Assembly (NCBI GenBank): GCA_008636095.1
Contig: VSJD01000248.1
Coordinates: forward strand, 1-10,000
Direction of reading: 5' to 3'
DNA from: Kiritimatiellota bacterium
GTDB taxonomy: Bacteria; Verrucomicrobiota; Kiritimatiellia; JAAZAB01
Length of the DNA stretch: 10,000 nt
Position 1 is the first letter of the stretch. Each line of letters starts with the position of its first letter. The notes under the pieces are model-generated. The model ran no database searches. It was not told the origin of the DNA and saw nothing but the letters and a program-made list of their open reading frames with translations. The translations under genes and the position numbers were made by a program. Positions 2,216 to 10,000 of this stretch are shown here, piece after piece.

Positions 2216-2737
2216 TCAAAAATCGTGAAATTTCTCGCCTACGGCGGACAACCCCGCCTGGGCGGCCAGCCGGTTCAGTTCCTGAACCAGGTCGCCCCAC
2301 GCGGCCTTTATGACCGCAGGCCGCGCCACCAGCACGACGTCCATCTGGCCCTGGAAGCCAGGCCGGTTTAATCGGAAGGCTTCCCGCAAACGACGTTTAG
2401 CCCGGTTGCGCGTGACCGCCGGCCCGATCCGCCGGCTAGCTACCACGCCCAAGCGCAGGGCGGCATCCTTGCCCGTGTAACACCAAAGCACCATAAATCG
2501 CCCGACGAACCGCCGCTGTTGCGCATAGGTTCGTTCGAACTGCAATCGCCTGGTCAGTCGCTGACGCCGGGATAACCGTACGCCAAGCTCCGCCGGCGTG
2601 TCCCACCGACCAGGCTCCGCCGGAGTGCTACGCCCAGGCGAGAGCGGCCTCGCGAAGGGGGAAACGCTTCCTCCTTCGCCAAGGCTATGGCGGACAAGCC
2701 GCCCAGACGAGTCAGGTTGCCGCGTCCCGGTAATCAT
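2216..2737 (-). CDS. rnpA: Ribonuclease P protein component with an unusual N-terminal extension
   Basis: RnpA is the protein cofactor of RNase P, which trims the 5' leader of pre-tRNAs. The family core begins near residue 55 (LSRRQRLTRRLQFERTY) and includes the RNR motif at 110-122 (RNRAKRRLREAFR), which contacts the RNA. It ends at 173. The core of about 119 residues is normal in length. The first 54 residues are an Arg/Pro/Gly-rich extension with no family counterpart that I recognise. The start at 2737 is supported by an AGGGGG sequence 8 bases upstream of the ATG. I found no ATG, GTG or TTG in frame between it and the core, so the extension is probably translated. The DNA of the extension (2576-2737) resembles the palindromic repeat cluster at 4690-4872. 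The gene lies 109 bases after rpmH and 8 bases before yidD. Confidence 0.94.
   Translation of the reverse strand: MITGTRQPDSSGRLVRHSLGEGGSVSPFARPLSPGRSTPAEPGRWDTPAELGVRLSRRQRLTRRLQFERTYAQQRRFVGRFMVLWCYTGKDAALRLGVVASRRIGPAVTRNRAKRRLREAFRLNRPGFQGQMDVVLVARPAVIKAAWGDLVQELNRLAAQAGLSAVGEKFHDF
2576..2737 (-). repeat. Repeat-like DNA forming the 5' extension of rnpA
   Basis: This segment encodes RnpA residues 1-54 and looks like non-coding repeat DNA rather than a domain. It carries GCTCCGCCGGAGT (plus strand 2614-2626) followed directly by GCTACGC. The cluster at 4690-4872 has the same two words on its minus strand, separated there by seven extra bases. A second block, at plus 2670-2696, begins CCTCCTTCGCCAA and contains CTATGG and GGACA. 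It matches plus 4736-4765 closely, with a three-base length difference and a few substitutions. Two shared blocks make chance similarity unlikely, but I compared them only by eye. Confidence 0.6.
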
Positions 2738-4689: not shown

Positions 4690-4872
4690 TCGCCCTTCTT
4701 CGCCAAGAAGCCCTGTGGCTTGCCACAGGGAGGATCCTCCGTCGCCAAAGTGACTATGGAGGACACGATGGCGTTCCTGGCTTCGCAGGGTTCCGCAAAG
4801 ACTCGACCTGCGTAGCCAATGCTACTCCGGCGGAGCAGGTTGCCCCGCGGTTTGCCGCGGGGTGCTTCGCTG
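4690..4872. repeat. Mosaic palindromic repeat cluster
   Basis: This intergenic stretch is nearly a chain of short hairpins. They are CTTCTT-CGCC-AAGAAG (4695-4710), CCCTGTGGC-TT-GCCACAGGG (4711-4730), the palindrome GGAGGATCCTCC (4729-4740), GTAGC-CAAT-GCTAC (4812-4825), CTCCG-G-CGGAG (4825-4835) and CCCCGCGG-TTTG-CCGCGGGG (4843-4862). It begins two bases after the stop codon of the coiled-coil gene, so some stems may serve as a 3'-end or terminator structure. Several words recur in the rnpA 5' extension. The 81-codon open frame through it is an artefact. The whole gap 4421-4873 contains no convincing gene. Between this cluster and the promoter (about 4625-4690) I see nothing specific. Confidence 0.75.
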
Positions 4873-4873
4873 G

Positions 4874-6649
4874 TCATTTCAATGACCGGCGGAACTTGCT
4901 GATTTGGTTCACGAATGCCGGTACGGTGTCGAGCGGGATGGCGCGCGCGCCGGCGGCCAGTGGCGCTGTATCAAGAACCAGACAGCGTTGATTGTCCACC
5001 ATGAGTCCGATGAAAGCGCCTTCTTCGGTAACGACGAAATCACCGGTCTCGGGTCGGGCATTCGGATTGGTGAATGCGTTCTGAAAGATGCTGGCCCAGG
5101 CGCGCAGGTTACGCCGGATGACGAGATAACGCGGATCATGCATGTCAAATGATGCTTCGATGGCGAAGCTCAAGCCTTCCGAAGAGCGCTTGAAGAGGTG
5201 CAGCCCGCCTGTGCCGCGCTTTTCCAGGGCCGGCCGACCGAGAATCTTCATGGGAGCAACATTCGTGATGCCGGCTGCCGTCAACTGCGGGTCATTGGTG
5301 AGACTGAACCCAATTAGCACAACGCGTGGATTGTCCGCCAAGGCCTGCAGAGGGCCTTTGAGCAATGCCGAGGTTCCCGCGCCGCCCCGCCGTGCGATGC
5401 GGTAATAAACATGCCGCAGGGACGAGGATGCGCCGGGCCAGTTCAGGCCCAGATCCTTATAGCCGGCGGCTAACCATAACCCGTCCGCCGCGGACAAGAG
5501 CGGCGGATATACCACAGCGGCATGCGTATCGAACTGCTGGCCGCTGATATCACTGTCCCGGTATTCCTGGGTCAGCGAAACCCGCAATTCCACCCGGGCA
5601 TCCCGGAAGGGCCGGAACGGACCCGGCCGCTTGGCGCCGATATCTTCCACCTTGGATGCCAGGCCCTTAATCTGGGCTTGGAGCGCATCCTGGTTCTGGC
5701 GCACGGCCGCAATGCCCGATACCAACTGGTCGGTCCGCCCGGTTATGACCGTTTGCAGGGCGTCCTGCAAGGCCATGTGCTGGGCCGCCATTGCGTCGAG
5801 TTTGGCGTCAAAGCCCTTGAATTCATCCGCAGTGCCGACGGTGTTCAACGCCGGGACCGATTCCGTCAGGCTGGATACGGAAGCTTCCAATTGCTGTTGG
5901 TTCGCGGCGATATCCTGGAGGCTGGCGCGCATGGCCTGGGGCAGATTTGCGGCCAGGGTATTGACGGATTGGAGGGTGGTTTCCATCCGGGCCTGCGCGG
6001 TCTGCAAATCACCGATACGGGTGTTCATTAAAACCTGGCGCTCGGCCACGTCCGTAATCTTGATTTGCGTAACTGTTTCCTGCTGTTGCAAGGTAAGCAG
6101 GTTGGTGGAAATGGTTTTCTGGTCGGTCTGAATATCTTTTAGTGCGCTCTGTACCTGTTCCTGTTTCTTGTTAATTTCTTCCAGGGAGCGGGTGTTCCTT
6201 GCCAGGCTGGCGATGCTTTCCTGCTGGCTGGTAATGGTTTTTTCGTGTTCATGGACGGTCGTGGCCATGCGCTGTTGTTCCTGCTTCAAGACTTCGGCTT
6301 CTTTTGCTTTCTGTTCCAGTTCCTGCTGGCGCGTTTGCAGTTCCTGGCGTTGGCCGGTAAGCGTGGTCTCCAAGCTCGATTTCACAAATTCCAGATCGGA
6401 CGATTTCCGGTTCAATTGAGCGATGGTCTTTTCCTGGGTCAGTAACTTGTGGCTGATAAGCGCATCCTGGGACTCGCGCATCCAGAGCGCTTCCATGTCG
6501 GCGATGGCTGCGGGAGCAAAATCCGGCGCCGGCGCCGTCGCCCGCGCGCCCGCACCTGCCGCCACCTGCCAGTTGTCCGGCCCGGTGATGAACAGCAGGA
6601 GCGAGGATACCAGGAAATCCATGATGATGATAAGAATGGCCGGTCGCAT
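4874..6649 (-). CDS. Membrane-anchored long coiled-coil protein of unknown function
   Basis: I do not recognise a family. The 591 residues have three parts. The first is one hydrophobic segment at the extreme N terminus (4-21, ILIIIMDFLVSSLLLFI) with a buried Asp11. The second is a long Gln/Glu/Lys-rich helical region with coiled-coil character (about 50-340). The third is a globular alpha/beta domain (about 345-591). With three residues before the hydrophobic run and no clear cleavage site, the segment looks like an anchor. An acidic residue in a lone N-terminal span is seen in MotB, TolR and ExbD, but no peptidoglycan-binding motif is evident. Within the C-terminal domain, GDFVVTEEGAFIGLMVDN (536-553) faintly recalls the GDSGGP region of trypsin-like folds but lacks the serine. 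The start has AAGGAA 11 bases upstream, overlapping the end of the preceding gene. The two genes are 7 bases apart. Confidence 0.85.
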   Translation of the reverse strand: MRPAILIIIMDFLVSSLLLFITGPDNWQVAAGAGARATAPAPDFAPAAIADMEALWMRESQDALISHKLLTQEKTIAQLNRKSSDLEFVKSSLETTLTGQRQELQTRQQELEQKAKEAEVLKQEQQRMATTVHEHEKTITSQQESIASLARNTRSLEEINKKQEQVQSALKDIQTDQKTISTNLLTLQQQETVTQIKITDVAERQVLMNTRIGDLQTAQARMETTLQSVNTLAANLPQAMRASLQDIAANQQQLEASVSSLTESVPALNTVGTADEFKGFDAKLDAMAAQHMALQDALQTVITGRTDQLVSGIAAVRQNQDALQAQIKGLASKVEDIGAKRPGPFRPFRDARVELRVSLTQEYRDSDISGQQFDTHAAVVYPPLLSAADGLWLAAGYKDLGLNWPGASSSLRHVYYRIARRGGAGTSALLKGPLQALADNPRVVLIGFSLTNDPQLTAAGITNVAPMKILGRPALEKRGTGGLHLFKRSSEGLSFAIEASFDMHDPRYLVIRRNLRAWASIFQNAFTNPNARPETGDFVVTEEGAFIGLMVDNQRCLVLDTAPLAAGARAIPLDTVPAFVNQISKFRRSLK

Positions 6650-6656
6650 GGCGGCT

Positions 6657-8285
6657 TTATTCCTTCCCGGTGATCAGGCTCTCGCGCAAGGGGTATAGAT
6701 AAAACAGTCTCAGCACGACGGCCAGGACAATCCCGACCAGCGTCGAAGAATAGGCCAGGAACCGGGCCACGCCGACGCCATACGTTGTAATCAGAATGAA
6801 GGAGAAAATCGTCACCGCCAGCCCGCAATAGAGGGGCAGGTCGAGAAAAATGTCCAGGTTCTCCATGCGTTTCAGCCGCGTAGGCAGGTCCGTGTCGGTG
6901 TCATTTTCGACATCCCTGATTCGACGGTGGGCGATCACCCAGCAGATACCCTGCACGATCAGGATGCCGGCCACCATGATGGCCATGGAGATGGCATTCA
7001 TATTACCACTGCTCGTCGTGGGCCCGGTGCCGTTGCTCTCCAGTTTCAGGCCGCCGCCATCTGGCGATGGGCCGGGCACCAGTGCTCCCAGCATGAGGAG
7101 CAGGCTGATGGTTGCACCGACTGCCGTGGCCGCAATCCAGTAGTTTTTCCGTCCCGCAAGTTGCTTGATCCCCGCTACGCCGGTTTTGCTCACGGTGGGA
7201 ATTAGCGATACTAATAAGATGGAGCAAAGTCCCGCCACAACCAAATACTTCAACAGCGTGGCCTTCACGCCAAAGACTGACCGGAAGGCTAACCAGTGCT
7301 TAACCAGTTGGGTGGGCGCCAGTACCCGGCTGCGGTTGAGCTCGTTCAAGGAGGCTAACGTTACGGCGGGGTGGTCGCCGATCCAGGCAACGCCAGCCGG
7401 ACCTTTACGCACCGCCGCGTACAGGAGGTCCAGGCCCGCCGGCCCCTGTTTCAAGATGACATCAATCGCGCGGGTCGCTGCTTGCGGCGCTTCCGTACCG
7501 GCCACGATCAGAACTTGGGTCAGCTTTGCGGCGCTTGACGGGGTGGTGGACGCCATTTTGATCAGAACCTTGAGCTGTTCAAGGCTCCGCGCCTGCTTGA
7601 GCAAGATTGCAAACTCTGTCCATGTTTTGCACGTCTTCGCCAACTGGTATACCGGCATGAGCGCATCTTGCGCGGCGGCCATCGAGAGGGACGAGCCCGG
7701 AGAAGAGCGGACGGCGGCCAGGCAATCGGTCAATTGGTTTTGCAGGGGAGGTTGGATGGCTTGAATACACGTGGCGGCTTTTAACAGGGCAAACGCCAGT
7801 TCGGCCTGGGGAAACAGGGCCGACAACGTATCGGCTTCGTTGATCCGTGTAATAAACGAATTGGCCCCCTGACTGGTTTCGGTGATCAGGCGCGGGATAT
7901 CGGCGTGAATCATGCCGTCGGCCACGCACCTGCCGGCCAGGCTCTCAAACGAGCCGGCGGCGGCATCCGGCTCCAACTCGGTCCCGAGGGCCGTCAGGTG
8001 TCCCAGGGCCGTCGTGTCGGTTCGAAGCGTGGCCCTGTATTTATCGCGCTGACCGGCGGCGACCAGCCACCCGGCAACCTTGTTGCGGTCGATGTAATCC
8101 AGCACTTCCAGGGCGGCGCCCCGGCGTCCGGCTTCCCAATTAGCTTCGGCGAGCGTGCGTAAATCCGATTCGGGCAAGGCCGTGAAGTCGGCCCCGGAAA
8201 TGTCCCGGGCACGGTCAGGGAGTTGCAGGACGGCGATCAGGACAAGCGTGGTCACGACAATCAGTACGATCTGCAGAATCCTCAT
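6657..8285 (-). CDS. Polytopic membrane protein with a large helical domain, unknown function
   Basis: I do not recognise a family with confidence. The 542 residues begin with a signal-anchor-like segment (5-21). A mostly helical, Ala/Leu-rich domain follows (about 25-340) that may be built from ARM/HEAT- or TPR-like helical pairs. Then come five hydrophobic spans (about 345-362, 382-402, 431-452, 484-503, 508-531). Between spans four and five lies a charged loop of about 32 residues (RRIRDVENDTDTDLPTRLKR), probably cytoplasmic. The last two spans, LPLYCGLAVTIFSFILITTYG and STLVGIVLAVVLRLFYLYPL, weakly resemble the paired C-terminal spans of MotA/TolQ/ExbB channels, but the GxxGTxxG motif is missing. 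AGGAG lies 8 bases before the ATG at 8285. It is the first gene of a two-gene unit with the coiled-coil protein, so the two products are likely partners. Confidence 0.85.
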   Translation of the reverse strand: MRILQIVLIVVTTLVLIAVLQLPDRARDISGADFTALPESDLRTLAEANWEAGRRGAALEVLDYIDRNKVAGWLVAAGQRDKYRATLRTDTTALGHLTALGTELEPDAAAGSFESLAGRCVADGMIHADIPRLITETSQGANSFITRINEADTLSALFPQAELAFALLKAATCIQAIQPPLQNQLTDCLAAVRSSPGSSLSMAAAQDALMPVYQLAKTCKTWTEFAILLKQARSLEQLKVLIKMASTTPSSAAKLTQVLIVAGTEAPQAATRAIDVILKQGPAGLDLLYAAVRKGPAGVAWIGDHPAVTLASLNELNRSRVLAPTQLVKHWLAFRSVFGVKATLLKYLVVAGLCSILLVSLIPTVSKTGVAGIKQLAGRKNYWIAATAVGATISLLLMLGALVPGPSPDGGGLKLESNGTGPTTSSGNMNAISMAIMVAGILIVQGICWVIAHRRIRDVENDTDTDLPTRLKRMENLDIFLDLPLYCGLAVTIFSFILITTYGVGVARFLAYSSTLVGIVLAVVLRLFYLYPLRESLITGKE

Positions 8286-8428: not shown

Positions 8429-10000
8429 TTACCTGGCCTTGAAATGAATGATCGTCGTGTCATAAGCCGGCGCCGTGCACACGATCGTTTCCGGATCAGC
8501 GTAAACCTCGCCGGTACCGTGGTTCTGCGCCGTTACCCGGTTTGAGGCGTATTTGACGCGGAAGTCGTTCTTCAGCGTTACTTTTTCATCCTTGTCCGTG
8601 TTGTTGAATATGAACACAACCCGGTCTTCGCCTTTGATCCAGACGCTGTAATCCAACGGCTTGTCCAGCGTGGCAACCTGATCAAACCTTGTGCCATCAA
8701 GGAAAAAATCTTCAAAGGTTGTCAATACCTGAATTCCCTCTCTGACCAAGGACCATGTCTGGCTGTCAAAAAGACCGCCCCAACTATAAATCTGAAATCC
8801 ATCCGCCTCCGTCAACGCCACGGACTGGATGGCGTCATTTTTGGCCAGGGGATAGTACAGCGAATACGTCTGCACCGAATTCAACACCGGCACTTTTCTG
8901 CCGCTGGCGGCCTTCAACGCTTCCCGCATCAGTTTCATTTCCGCCAGCCCCCACCTTCCACGCATCGGGAAATGATGTTCCATAAATACGTCTACATACC
9001 TGCCGGCTGCCGGGGGATAAACCCCGTAATATTCGCAGTCATGCCAAGGCCCCTTCGCGTTCTGAATTTCCTGATAACTGCCCGAATATAGATAGAATCT
9101 GGCAGAGGGATTGGCCTCCCGGACCGATGTAATCATTGATCGCCACATTCTTCCGTTTTGTTCTCCCCTGAACTTCAGCCATTCCAGCGGATAATTTGAC
9201 AGAATCGACCGTGCTGGTTCCGTCAAATCCTGAAATGGATAGTCTTCCTCAAGCATAACTACTCTATCAGGCACTTGGTTAATATCTTCTATCCCTGCAT
9301 ATTTTTTAAATGCCTCAATGCAATCTGGACAGAAACAGCTTTCTTTTTTCTGTTTATAGGGAACATTCAAAATATTAGACACCTCATAGTCCCACATCAG
9401 TCCATCCCATTTATTGATCCGGGCAGCCGCTTTTAGAAACCCGAGAATGATCCGCCAGTACTCACTACGCTCATCCGTCAGTCTGGTTAAGCAAGGAGAA
9501 GGTTTCCTTATTTGAGTTGCCTTATTTGTTTGTCCGGACTGATTCACGTACTCATTGATCGCCAACTTGTCCGGAGCGGGCGGATGATTGGAAACATACG
9601 CATCAAACGCCATATCCTCATAAGGAAAAGCAAGATATGCTATGGCAGCCATCCCGCGTTGTTTGATTTTGCCGGCCAAAGGATCGCGTAGATTCATTTT
9701 CCTGACGTTGCCGTCATATGGTGACTCCCATGGATTATGATGGAGTTCCGTCAAATGTGTCTTGATTCCGCACGATTTCGTCAGATCAAGCAGGTAATCT
9801 TGGACCCGGCCCGGTTGGAACCCCATGCAGTCTTCCGCCGCTGACCATAACACCACTTCCAATGACTTCGGCTTCCTGACATCATCTTCCACGATGACGC
9901 GTAATCTCTGCTCCGGAACGGAATATTGTTTTCCGTTGATCTCGTATTCATAATGAGCCCGTATTTCAGTTTCCCTTTTCCCTCCCCCGATCTTGATCCA
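8429..10000 (-). CDS. Glycoside-hydrolase-like TIM-barrel protein (partial, N terminus outside the window)
   Basis: The reading frame is open to base 10000 on the minus strand, so the GTG at 9892 is internal and not the start. The 523 visible residues open with a beta-strand-rich piece (EIRAHYEYEINGKQYSVPEQ). A barrel-like region follows with LMWDYEV (visible residues 201-207), whose Asp/Glu are plausible catalytic residues. A CFCPDCIEAF motif (222-231) may bind a metal. Further aromatic-rich strands include FYLYSGSY, DVFMEHHFP and GFQIYSWGG. The C-terminal 80 residues look like a beta-sandwich cap (DRVVFIFNNTD to TIIHFKAR). The CxCPxC-Phe element after a WDxE-type strand recurs in uncharacterised glycosidase-like proteins of polysaccharide-degrading bacteria. 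Substrate and enzyme family cannot be fixed. The part around 9250-9700 is visibly more A/T-rich than the genes downstream. Confidence 0.75.
   Translation of the reverse strand, partial: WIKIGGGKRETEIRAHYEYEINGKQYSVPEQRLRVIVEDDVRKPKSLEVVLWSAAEDCMGFQPGRVQDYLLDLTKSCGIKTHLTELHHNPWESPYDGNVRKMNLRDPLAGKIKQRGMAAIAYLAFPYEDMAFDAYVSNHPPAPDKLAINEYVNQSGQTNKATQIRKPSPCLTRLTDERSEYWRIILGFLKAAARINKWDGLMWDYEVSNILNVPYKQKKESCFCPDCIEAFKKYAGIEDINQVPDRVVMLEEDYPFQDLTEPARSILSNYPLEWLKFRGEQNGRMWRSMITSVREANPSARFYLYSGSYQEIQNAKGPWHDCEYYGVYPPAAGRYVDVFMEHHFPMRGRWGLAEMKLMREALKAASGRKVPVLNSVQTYSLYYPLAKNDAIQSVALTEADGFQIYSWGGLFDSQTWSLVREGIQVLTTFEDFFLDGTRFDQVATLDKPLDYSVWIKGEDRVVFIFNNTDKDEKVTLKNDFRVKYASNRVTAQNHGTGEVYADPETIVCTAPAYDTTIIHFKAR

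Follow-up and report, generated by a model that had tools for sequence, protein, structure and literature searches.

In the bacterial genome analyzed here, the gene for the protein component of RNase P (rnpA) carries a copy of a genomic repeat between its start and its family core. With a probability of roughly 0.9, RnpA residues 10-52 are encoded by a composite palindromic repeat of REP-like type, which inserts widely and whose harmless in-frame copies persist. The original prediction had held that a mobile palindromic element was captured in frame by this essential gene, and the analysis supports that interpretation in its essentials, with corrections. The repeat, its reading frame and an empty site in a congener were all found as this view would have it, but the element lies behind a nine-residue leader and is an insertion rather than a pure extension. 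The window is a 10,000-nt stretch on contig C230 (VSJD01000248.1) of a draft Kiritimatiellota genome (GCA_008636095.1, hereafter G000; 3.8 Mb, 87% complete, 357 contigs), and four congeners (G001 to G004) were used for the closest comparisons.

Anatomy and translation start of RnpA

The rnpA gene (2216-2737, minus strand) encodes 173 amino acids, of which residues 55-161 match the Pfam Ribonuclease_P family (PF00825, 91 bits) over profile positions 1-108 of 109. In phmmer, solved RnpA chains match from query residue 54 or later, and by Pfam and phmmer together the family core with its C-terminal tail comprises residues 54-173 (2216-2578, minus strand). The predicted length of the additional segment, about 54 residues, agrees with the 53-54 residues that precede the core. 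Its description as Arg/Pro-rich had to be revised, since the first 53 residues contain 8 Gly, 7 Pro, 7 Ser and 6 Arg, and "Gly/Pro/Ser/Arg-rich" is a better fit. AlphaFold assigned pLDDT values below 50 to residues 1-55 and began the first core helix at residue 57, in what is a poor model (three-row alignment, pTM 0.37).

The gene sits between its upstream neighbor rpmH (ribosomal protein L34; 2847-2984, minus strand; read from the sequence and named by eye) and yidD/yidC, with the order rpmH-rnpA-yidD-yidC intact. Between rpmH and rnpA, positions 2758-2835 hold another palindrome (CTGCCTGCAACGCTGTCGCGTTGCGACTGCGGGCAGG) in which CCTG recurs about six times, and similar sequences were seen by eye near rnpA in G001 and G002. 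The window contains no Rfam match at gathering scores. It also includes three long open reading frames (ORFs) without a Pfam match at E 0.001, located at 4874-6649 (591 aa), 6657-8285 (542 aa) and 8429-9892 (487 aa).

A good ribosome binding site at the far start and the lack of an alternative start near the core had also been predicted, and both are confirmed: AGGGGG, as read from the sequence, ends 8 nt before the ATG, and the only in-frame starts ahead of the core are this ATG (codon 1) and an ATT (codon 2). No ATG, GTG, TTG or CTG occurs from codon 2 to the core in G000; a CTG at codon 61, within the core helix, is the next candidate among the usual and near-usual starts. This lack of start codons weighs against the view that the segment is untranslated, with RnpA starting at an unusual codon by the core and the palindromes serving as leader-RNA hairpins that control expression. 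Hairpins are able to form, and the available text of PMC3733652 gives a warning of this kind for N-terminal REPs in P. putida, C. koseri and S. maltophilia. However, the start and leader are recognizable in all five species of the genus, the frame is kept through four different inserts, and related elements lie deep within PheT, AtpG and AroK, and we regard an untranslated segment as very improbable. Translation probably proceeds through the insert, judging by these sequence features; an example of a tryptic peptide encoded within residues 10-52 is HSLGEGGSVSPFARPLSPGR.

The insert as a genomic repeat

The composite repeat inserted in rnpA spans 132 bp (2582-2713, minus strand; codons 9-52, GAC...GGC), and the same bounds were obtained from blastn and from self-comparison of the sampled genomic stretches. 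Codon 9, the first of the repeat, also belongs to the native leader (residues 1-9, MITGTRQPD, start codon included; 2711-2737, minus strand), which was delimited by comparison with congeners, and the gene is 43 codons longer than the empty site of G001. The insert contains two palindromic units on the minus strand: the 33-nt unit A (2610-2642), which differs at one position from the unit drawn up from other copies, and the 29-nt unit B (2670-2698), which was itself written from this copy. Among the matches listed, the best other copy is C19:1484-1615 of the same genome, with 92% identity over the 132 bp in blastn; it was the alignment to this copy that gave the blastn bounds.

A genome-wide count of copies placed the repeat blocks at dozens of sites, not just two. 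A 181-base query (2560-2740) gave at least 51 matches in its own genome at E values up to 10, itself included, a lower bound because 40 of the 151 first-look candidates were scored. The sequence TCGCCAANNCTATGGNGGACA was found at 41 genome sites with up to 2 mismatches, and GCGTAGCGCTCCGGCGGAGCCTGG at 45 sites with up to 3 mismatches, versus 0 for the reversed control in each case. When 11 repeat copies were aligned, the full-length ones started and stopped near common points, and the flanks differed between copies.

The DNA of the insert folds modestly better than shuffled sequences (z -2.12), and its RNA reaches a z of -0.92; the RNA hairpin was dropped as a strong point, as shuffles fold as well. 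The insert is open in five of six frames, a weak signal against dinucleotide shuffles (P 0.0165).

The intergenic palindrome cluster at 4690-4872, identified by sequence reading and block search, consists of degenerate pieces of units A and B and had been proposed as the relative of the rnpA segment. The shared blocks are present as described: GCTCCGCCGGAGT at 2614 (plus) and 4824 (minus), with no further exact site in the window; GCTACGC at 2627 (plus) and 4810 (minus); TCGCCAA at 2676, 4700 and 4742; and CTATGG at 2685 and 4754. However, among the matches listed, the closest relative is the C19 copy. Since the best match between insert and cluster is a short one (13 bp, with an E value of 4e-4 when 181 bp were compared with 201 bp), the cluster is a degenerate relative at most, and within it 4690-4717 alone passed the repeat threshold in self-comparison.

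The rnpA insertion site in congeners

RnpA was found in 55 of the 58 genomes compared, and its N terminus was read in 17 (the five genus members, three further family members and nine other genomes); the comparison of inserts is drawn from the genus only. The leader is recognizable in all five members, reading MxTGTRQPD in G000, G002, G003 and G004 and MTTRAQQPD in G001. The latter species provides the empty site (MTTRAQQPD-R-RLSKRQRL). In the other four, 7 (G002), 28 (G003), 23 (G004) and 44 (G000) residues separate the leader from RLSRR, and by hand count the excess over G001 is 6, 27, 22 and 43 codons, respectively, always in frame. Aligning RnpA of relatives, as had been suggested, thus revealed an extension that is not conserved as protein: one congener lacks it, and three others have a different one.

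The four inserts differ from one another, and they share the 5' junction GACTCG(C/T)CTG, which in G000 and G003 is followed by the common sequence GCGGCTTGTCCGCCATAG. In G004, CCTGAC flanks the insert on both sides. The shared junction suggests that the common ancestor of four of the five genus members examined may have acquired one in-frame repeat behind codon 9, ahead of the core, and that each descendant lineage would then have remodeled it without loss of frame. Independent insertions at a hot spot, a variant of the same explanation, would account for the different make-up of the inserts and have precedents in AtpG and PheT, each of which received independent insertions within one gene. 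Against it stand the junction common to all four and GCGGCTTGTCCGCCATAG in two of them, and a single ancestral insertion is favored here, with the hot spot as the less probable course.

The same comparison bears on whether the segment is an adaptive domain, a flexible and partly basic tail that would aid binding of RNase P RNA or precursor tRNA. Such a role would suit the 6 Arg among 53 residues, and open frames before the RnpA core run long in some class members too, with a possible start far upstream. Nevertheless, both length and sequence vary per congener, the segment is absent in G001, the same DNA occurs in unrelated proteins, and the AlphaFold model, poor as it is, shows no structure there. 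An adaptive origin is hence considered improbable, and the insert presumably has a near-neutral effect on RNase P.

Reading frame on the genome scale

For a wider view of repeats in genes, 79 joined stretches of G000 (256,457 nt) were assembled, chosen around repeat matches, the window and transposase loci, and coding flanks were scored by a hexamer coding model trained on these stretches themselves. Self-comparison yielded 125 repeat regions. Coding flanks on the same strand were present at both sides of 26 regions, of which 25 were in frame without a stop and 1 was in another frame (P = 2e-11 if one third is expected by chance); the rest had one coding side (49), none (40) or flanks on opposite strands (10). 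The rnpA leader is too short to be scored as a coding flank, which left that region one-sided; the copy on C19 was scored as opposite-strand, so that both fall outside the 25. The repeat threshold missed some pattern matches, such as C14:5701.

A second genome gave a comparable picture. In 43 stretches of G004 (132,694 nt), covering all 29 of the listed matches to unit A and 14 of the 20 to unit B, 65 regions comprised 11 in frame, 0 out of frame, 25 with one coding side, 25 with none and 4 with opposite strands. The sample also includes the rnpA, AroK and AtpG loci, which were fetched by gene and contribute 2 of the 11 in-frame regions. With coding thresholds varied from 0.05 to 0.3, G000 had 19-26 regions in frame versus 0-1 out, and G004 had 7-12 versus 0. 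Counted by ORF, the in-frame regions correspond to 24 ORFs for the 25 regions of G000 and 9 for the 11 of G004. Other repeats or coding sequence held in common may account for some of them, because 5 of 25 and 2 of 11, respectively, lie beyond the match limit for units A and B. A kinase-like ORF (named by eye) on contig C267 of G000 has two in-frame repeat regions about 20 residues apart.

These frame counts also address the concern that the rnpA insert might be an assembly or binning artefact. The genomes are drafts, and short-read metagenome assemblies can break or join at repeats. However, the frame is kept in 25 of 26 regions and, in the second genome, in 11 of 11, the PheT insert is common to two genomes, and the gene order around rnpA is intact, leaving an artefact extremely improbable.

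Repeat regions lay inside genes in frame in 25 of 125 cases, whereas 51% of 1784 positions drawn at random from these stretches did so, and repeats are therefore depleted in genes. Taken as a whole, the elements are palindromic units rich in GC, about 30-33 nt long and either single or joined, that occur throughout the genome and the genus and would insert both within and between genes. Selection would remove out-of-frame insertions from needed genes, and stop-free copies with a length of 3n that code for a likely flexible Pro/Gly/Ala-rich peptide would stay as tolerated passengers. Alternatively, the elements might be built frame-neutral, with 3n units, five to six open frames and Pro/Gly-rich linkers, and act as a constant source of flexible loops and linkers in essential proteins, RnpA among them, rather than as rare lucky survivors, an idea that we consider doubtful. 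The excess of open frames over all regions was 0.61 for in-frame copies versus 0.35 for those without coding flanks, and among high-copy regions 0.74 versus 0.77; frame openness is therefore at best a property of the element, not of the copies within genes.

Host genes and empty sites

By Pfam searches of whole ORFs, the hosts in G000 include PheT, AtpG, AroK, a kdotransferase, MetX-MetW, a ParA-like protein with a URO-D part and a sigma factor, which we take to be of the ECF type. The C19 copy is located near the N terminus of this sigma-factor ORF and is read in the same frame as in rnpA. Further Pfam-assigned hosts are an Mfd-type helicase, PilM, an HI0933-like flavoprotein, a carbohydrate phosphorylase, T2SSE, a GH94-type protein, a glycosyltransferase and a nucleotidyltransferase. 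In G004, they are ScpB, RACo, YidC, a GH94-type protein, a Beta-lactamase-family/FG-GAP protein, anthranilate synthase I, a radical SAM protein and an HD hydrolase.

Relatives show empty sites for several of these genes. AroK carries an exact 30-bp insert in G000 that is absent in 9 of 9 aligned relatives (G010 matched and was left out of the alignment); no target bases are duplicated compared with congeners, and the best solved shikimate kinase shows a 10-residue alignment gap at this point. The 10-11 extra residues of AtpG in G000 are missing from all 7 other rows (G010 and G011, which matched weakly, were left out), and AtpG of G004 has an insert of 22 aa in a different loop. In PheT, 66 nt (22 residues) are common to G000 and G002 and absent in 6 other rows, with 4 differences over the 66 columns versus 17 over 324 in the flank. 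PheT of G004 has its own in-frame insert of 57 nt (19 residues), 40 residues away from the G000/G002 site. Parts of this insert match other stretches (37 bp at 92% and 43 bp at 93%) and are not clearly unit A or B. PheT of G001 was not found beyond a repeat match.

The linker of MetX-MetW is filled in G000, filled otherwise in G002 and empty in G003, G004 and G001. Fusion of the two parts by the element was considered and rejected, as relatives have a single open frame through both parts without it. At C54:1399-1478 of G000, the ParA-like ORF stays open across a unit-B-like repeat and reaches a URO-D-like domain in the same frame, possibly a gene fusion made by the repeat.

Distribution, encoded peptides and a candidate mover

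With up to 2 mismatches, unit A was found in 8 of 58 genomes, all of the same family, with 43 sites in G000, 16 in G001, 35 in G002, 32 in G003 and 29 in G004. At the same limit, unit B was present in 25 of 58 genomes from various parts of the class, in several of them at one site; such single sites may be due to chance, because the reversed control also gave one site in one genome. Unit A is thus nearly confined to the genus, and unit B is distributed more widely.

Twenty in-frame copies of unit A encode SPGRSAPAEP (8), PGSAGALRPGE (6), QAPPERYAQA (4) or LAWAKRSGGAW (2), with none in the other two frames. The first three peptides are Pro/Gly/Ala-rich and likely flexible, and the peptide encoded by the rnpA insert may be flexible as well. 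The remaining two frames are Arg/Leu-rich. That these two are never used was rejected despite the count of 0 of 20, as one of them is read in the MetX-MetW linker of G002 (RLGVALRRSL).

The favored guess for the mover of the units, tentative as it is, is a Y1 (HUH) transposase that would act on their single-stranded hairpins in trans; transposition of this type leaves no target duplication. Y1_Tnp loci numbered 4 in G000 and 2 each in G001, G003 and G004, with none found in G002. In the stretches searched, no clear unit was detected beside the 10 loci, several of which are at contig ends. The nearest unit to a Y1_Tnp gene of G000 is about 2.6 kb away, and one weak unit-B match (8/29 mismatched) occurs in L234.

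Comparison with known systems

No paper on palindromic repeats or repeat elements in Kiritimatiellota, and none on an N-terminal extension of the RNase P protein with rnpA and rpmH, was found in a literature search that most subscription papers lay outside. RnpA of Thermus is long, with extra residues before the core, and we know of no repeat origin for that extension.

According to the available text of a review (PMC10969869), Rickettsia palindromic elements (RPEs) are about 150 bp long and occur in frame in many unrelated genes; a dozen homologues were recorded in other Rickettsia, eleven of them in frame within ORFs. The units described here also insert in frame in unrelated genes, and the predicted likeness to RPEs stands to that extent. 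However, rnpA is one of many host genes, and the available text of PMC3733652 places in-frame palindromes beyond Rickettsia. In addition, the host lineage is a different one, the resemblance is one of behavior, and unit A is read in at least four frames, whereas one conserved encoded peptide would be expected of an RPE. The units are not classified as RPEs.

Another parallel is offered by the intragenic GTAG/CGTC REPs of PMC3733652, described in its available text as palindromes of 20-40 bp that are mostly intergenic and in some cases lie within ORFs. There, in-gene REPs occur alone, in pairs or in groups and add 20-30 and up to 43-82 aa, an ORF with two insertions is on record, and in-gene GTAG repeats reach their highest number in a verrucomicrobium, Opitutus terrae; the section on in-gene REPs, as available, does not name rnpA. 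The present units are likewise small palindromes of high copy number, mainly intergenic, with a fifth of the G000 regions in frame in a gene. In contrast, of the unit-A copies, 10 of 43 in G000 and 7 of 29 in G004 have GTAG at one end of the stem, versus more than 90% in most families of the available text. No tyrosine transposase was found beside the units in the stretches searched. The units resemble miniature inverted-repeat transposable elements (MITEs) in being small, non-autonomous and numerous. AroK shows no target duplication, whereas rnpA of G004 has CCTGAC on both sides of its insert, and no long terminal inverted repeats were seen by eye in 11 aligned copies.

Given the RPEs and the in-gene REPs in the available text of PMC3733652, the kind of event is already known; as far as the literature search reaches, what is new are the families of elements, their host lineage, the insertion in rnpA and the empty sites. 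For annotation, Pro/Gly/Arg-rich segments such as SPGRSAPAEPG, PGSAGALRPGE and QAPPERYAQAR in proteins of this genus can be repeat-derived. These findings extend the known systems to a further bacterial lineage in which palindromes have inserted densely and in frame into core genes, with empty sites in relatives and independent events in AtpG and PheT, and comparison can now ask which sites tolerate a foreign peptide, whether the elements are neutral or useful, and at what rate they seed linkers.
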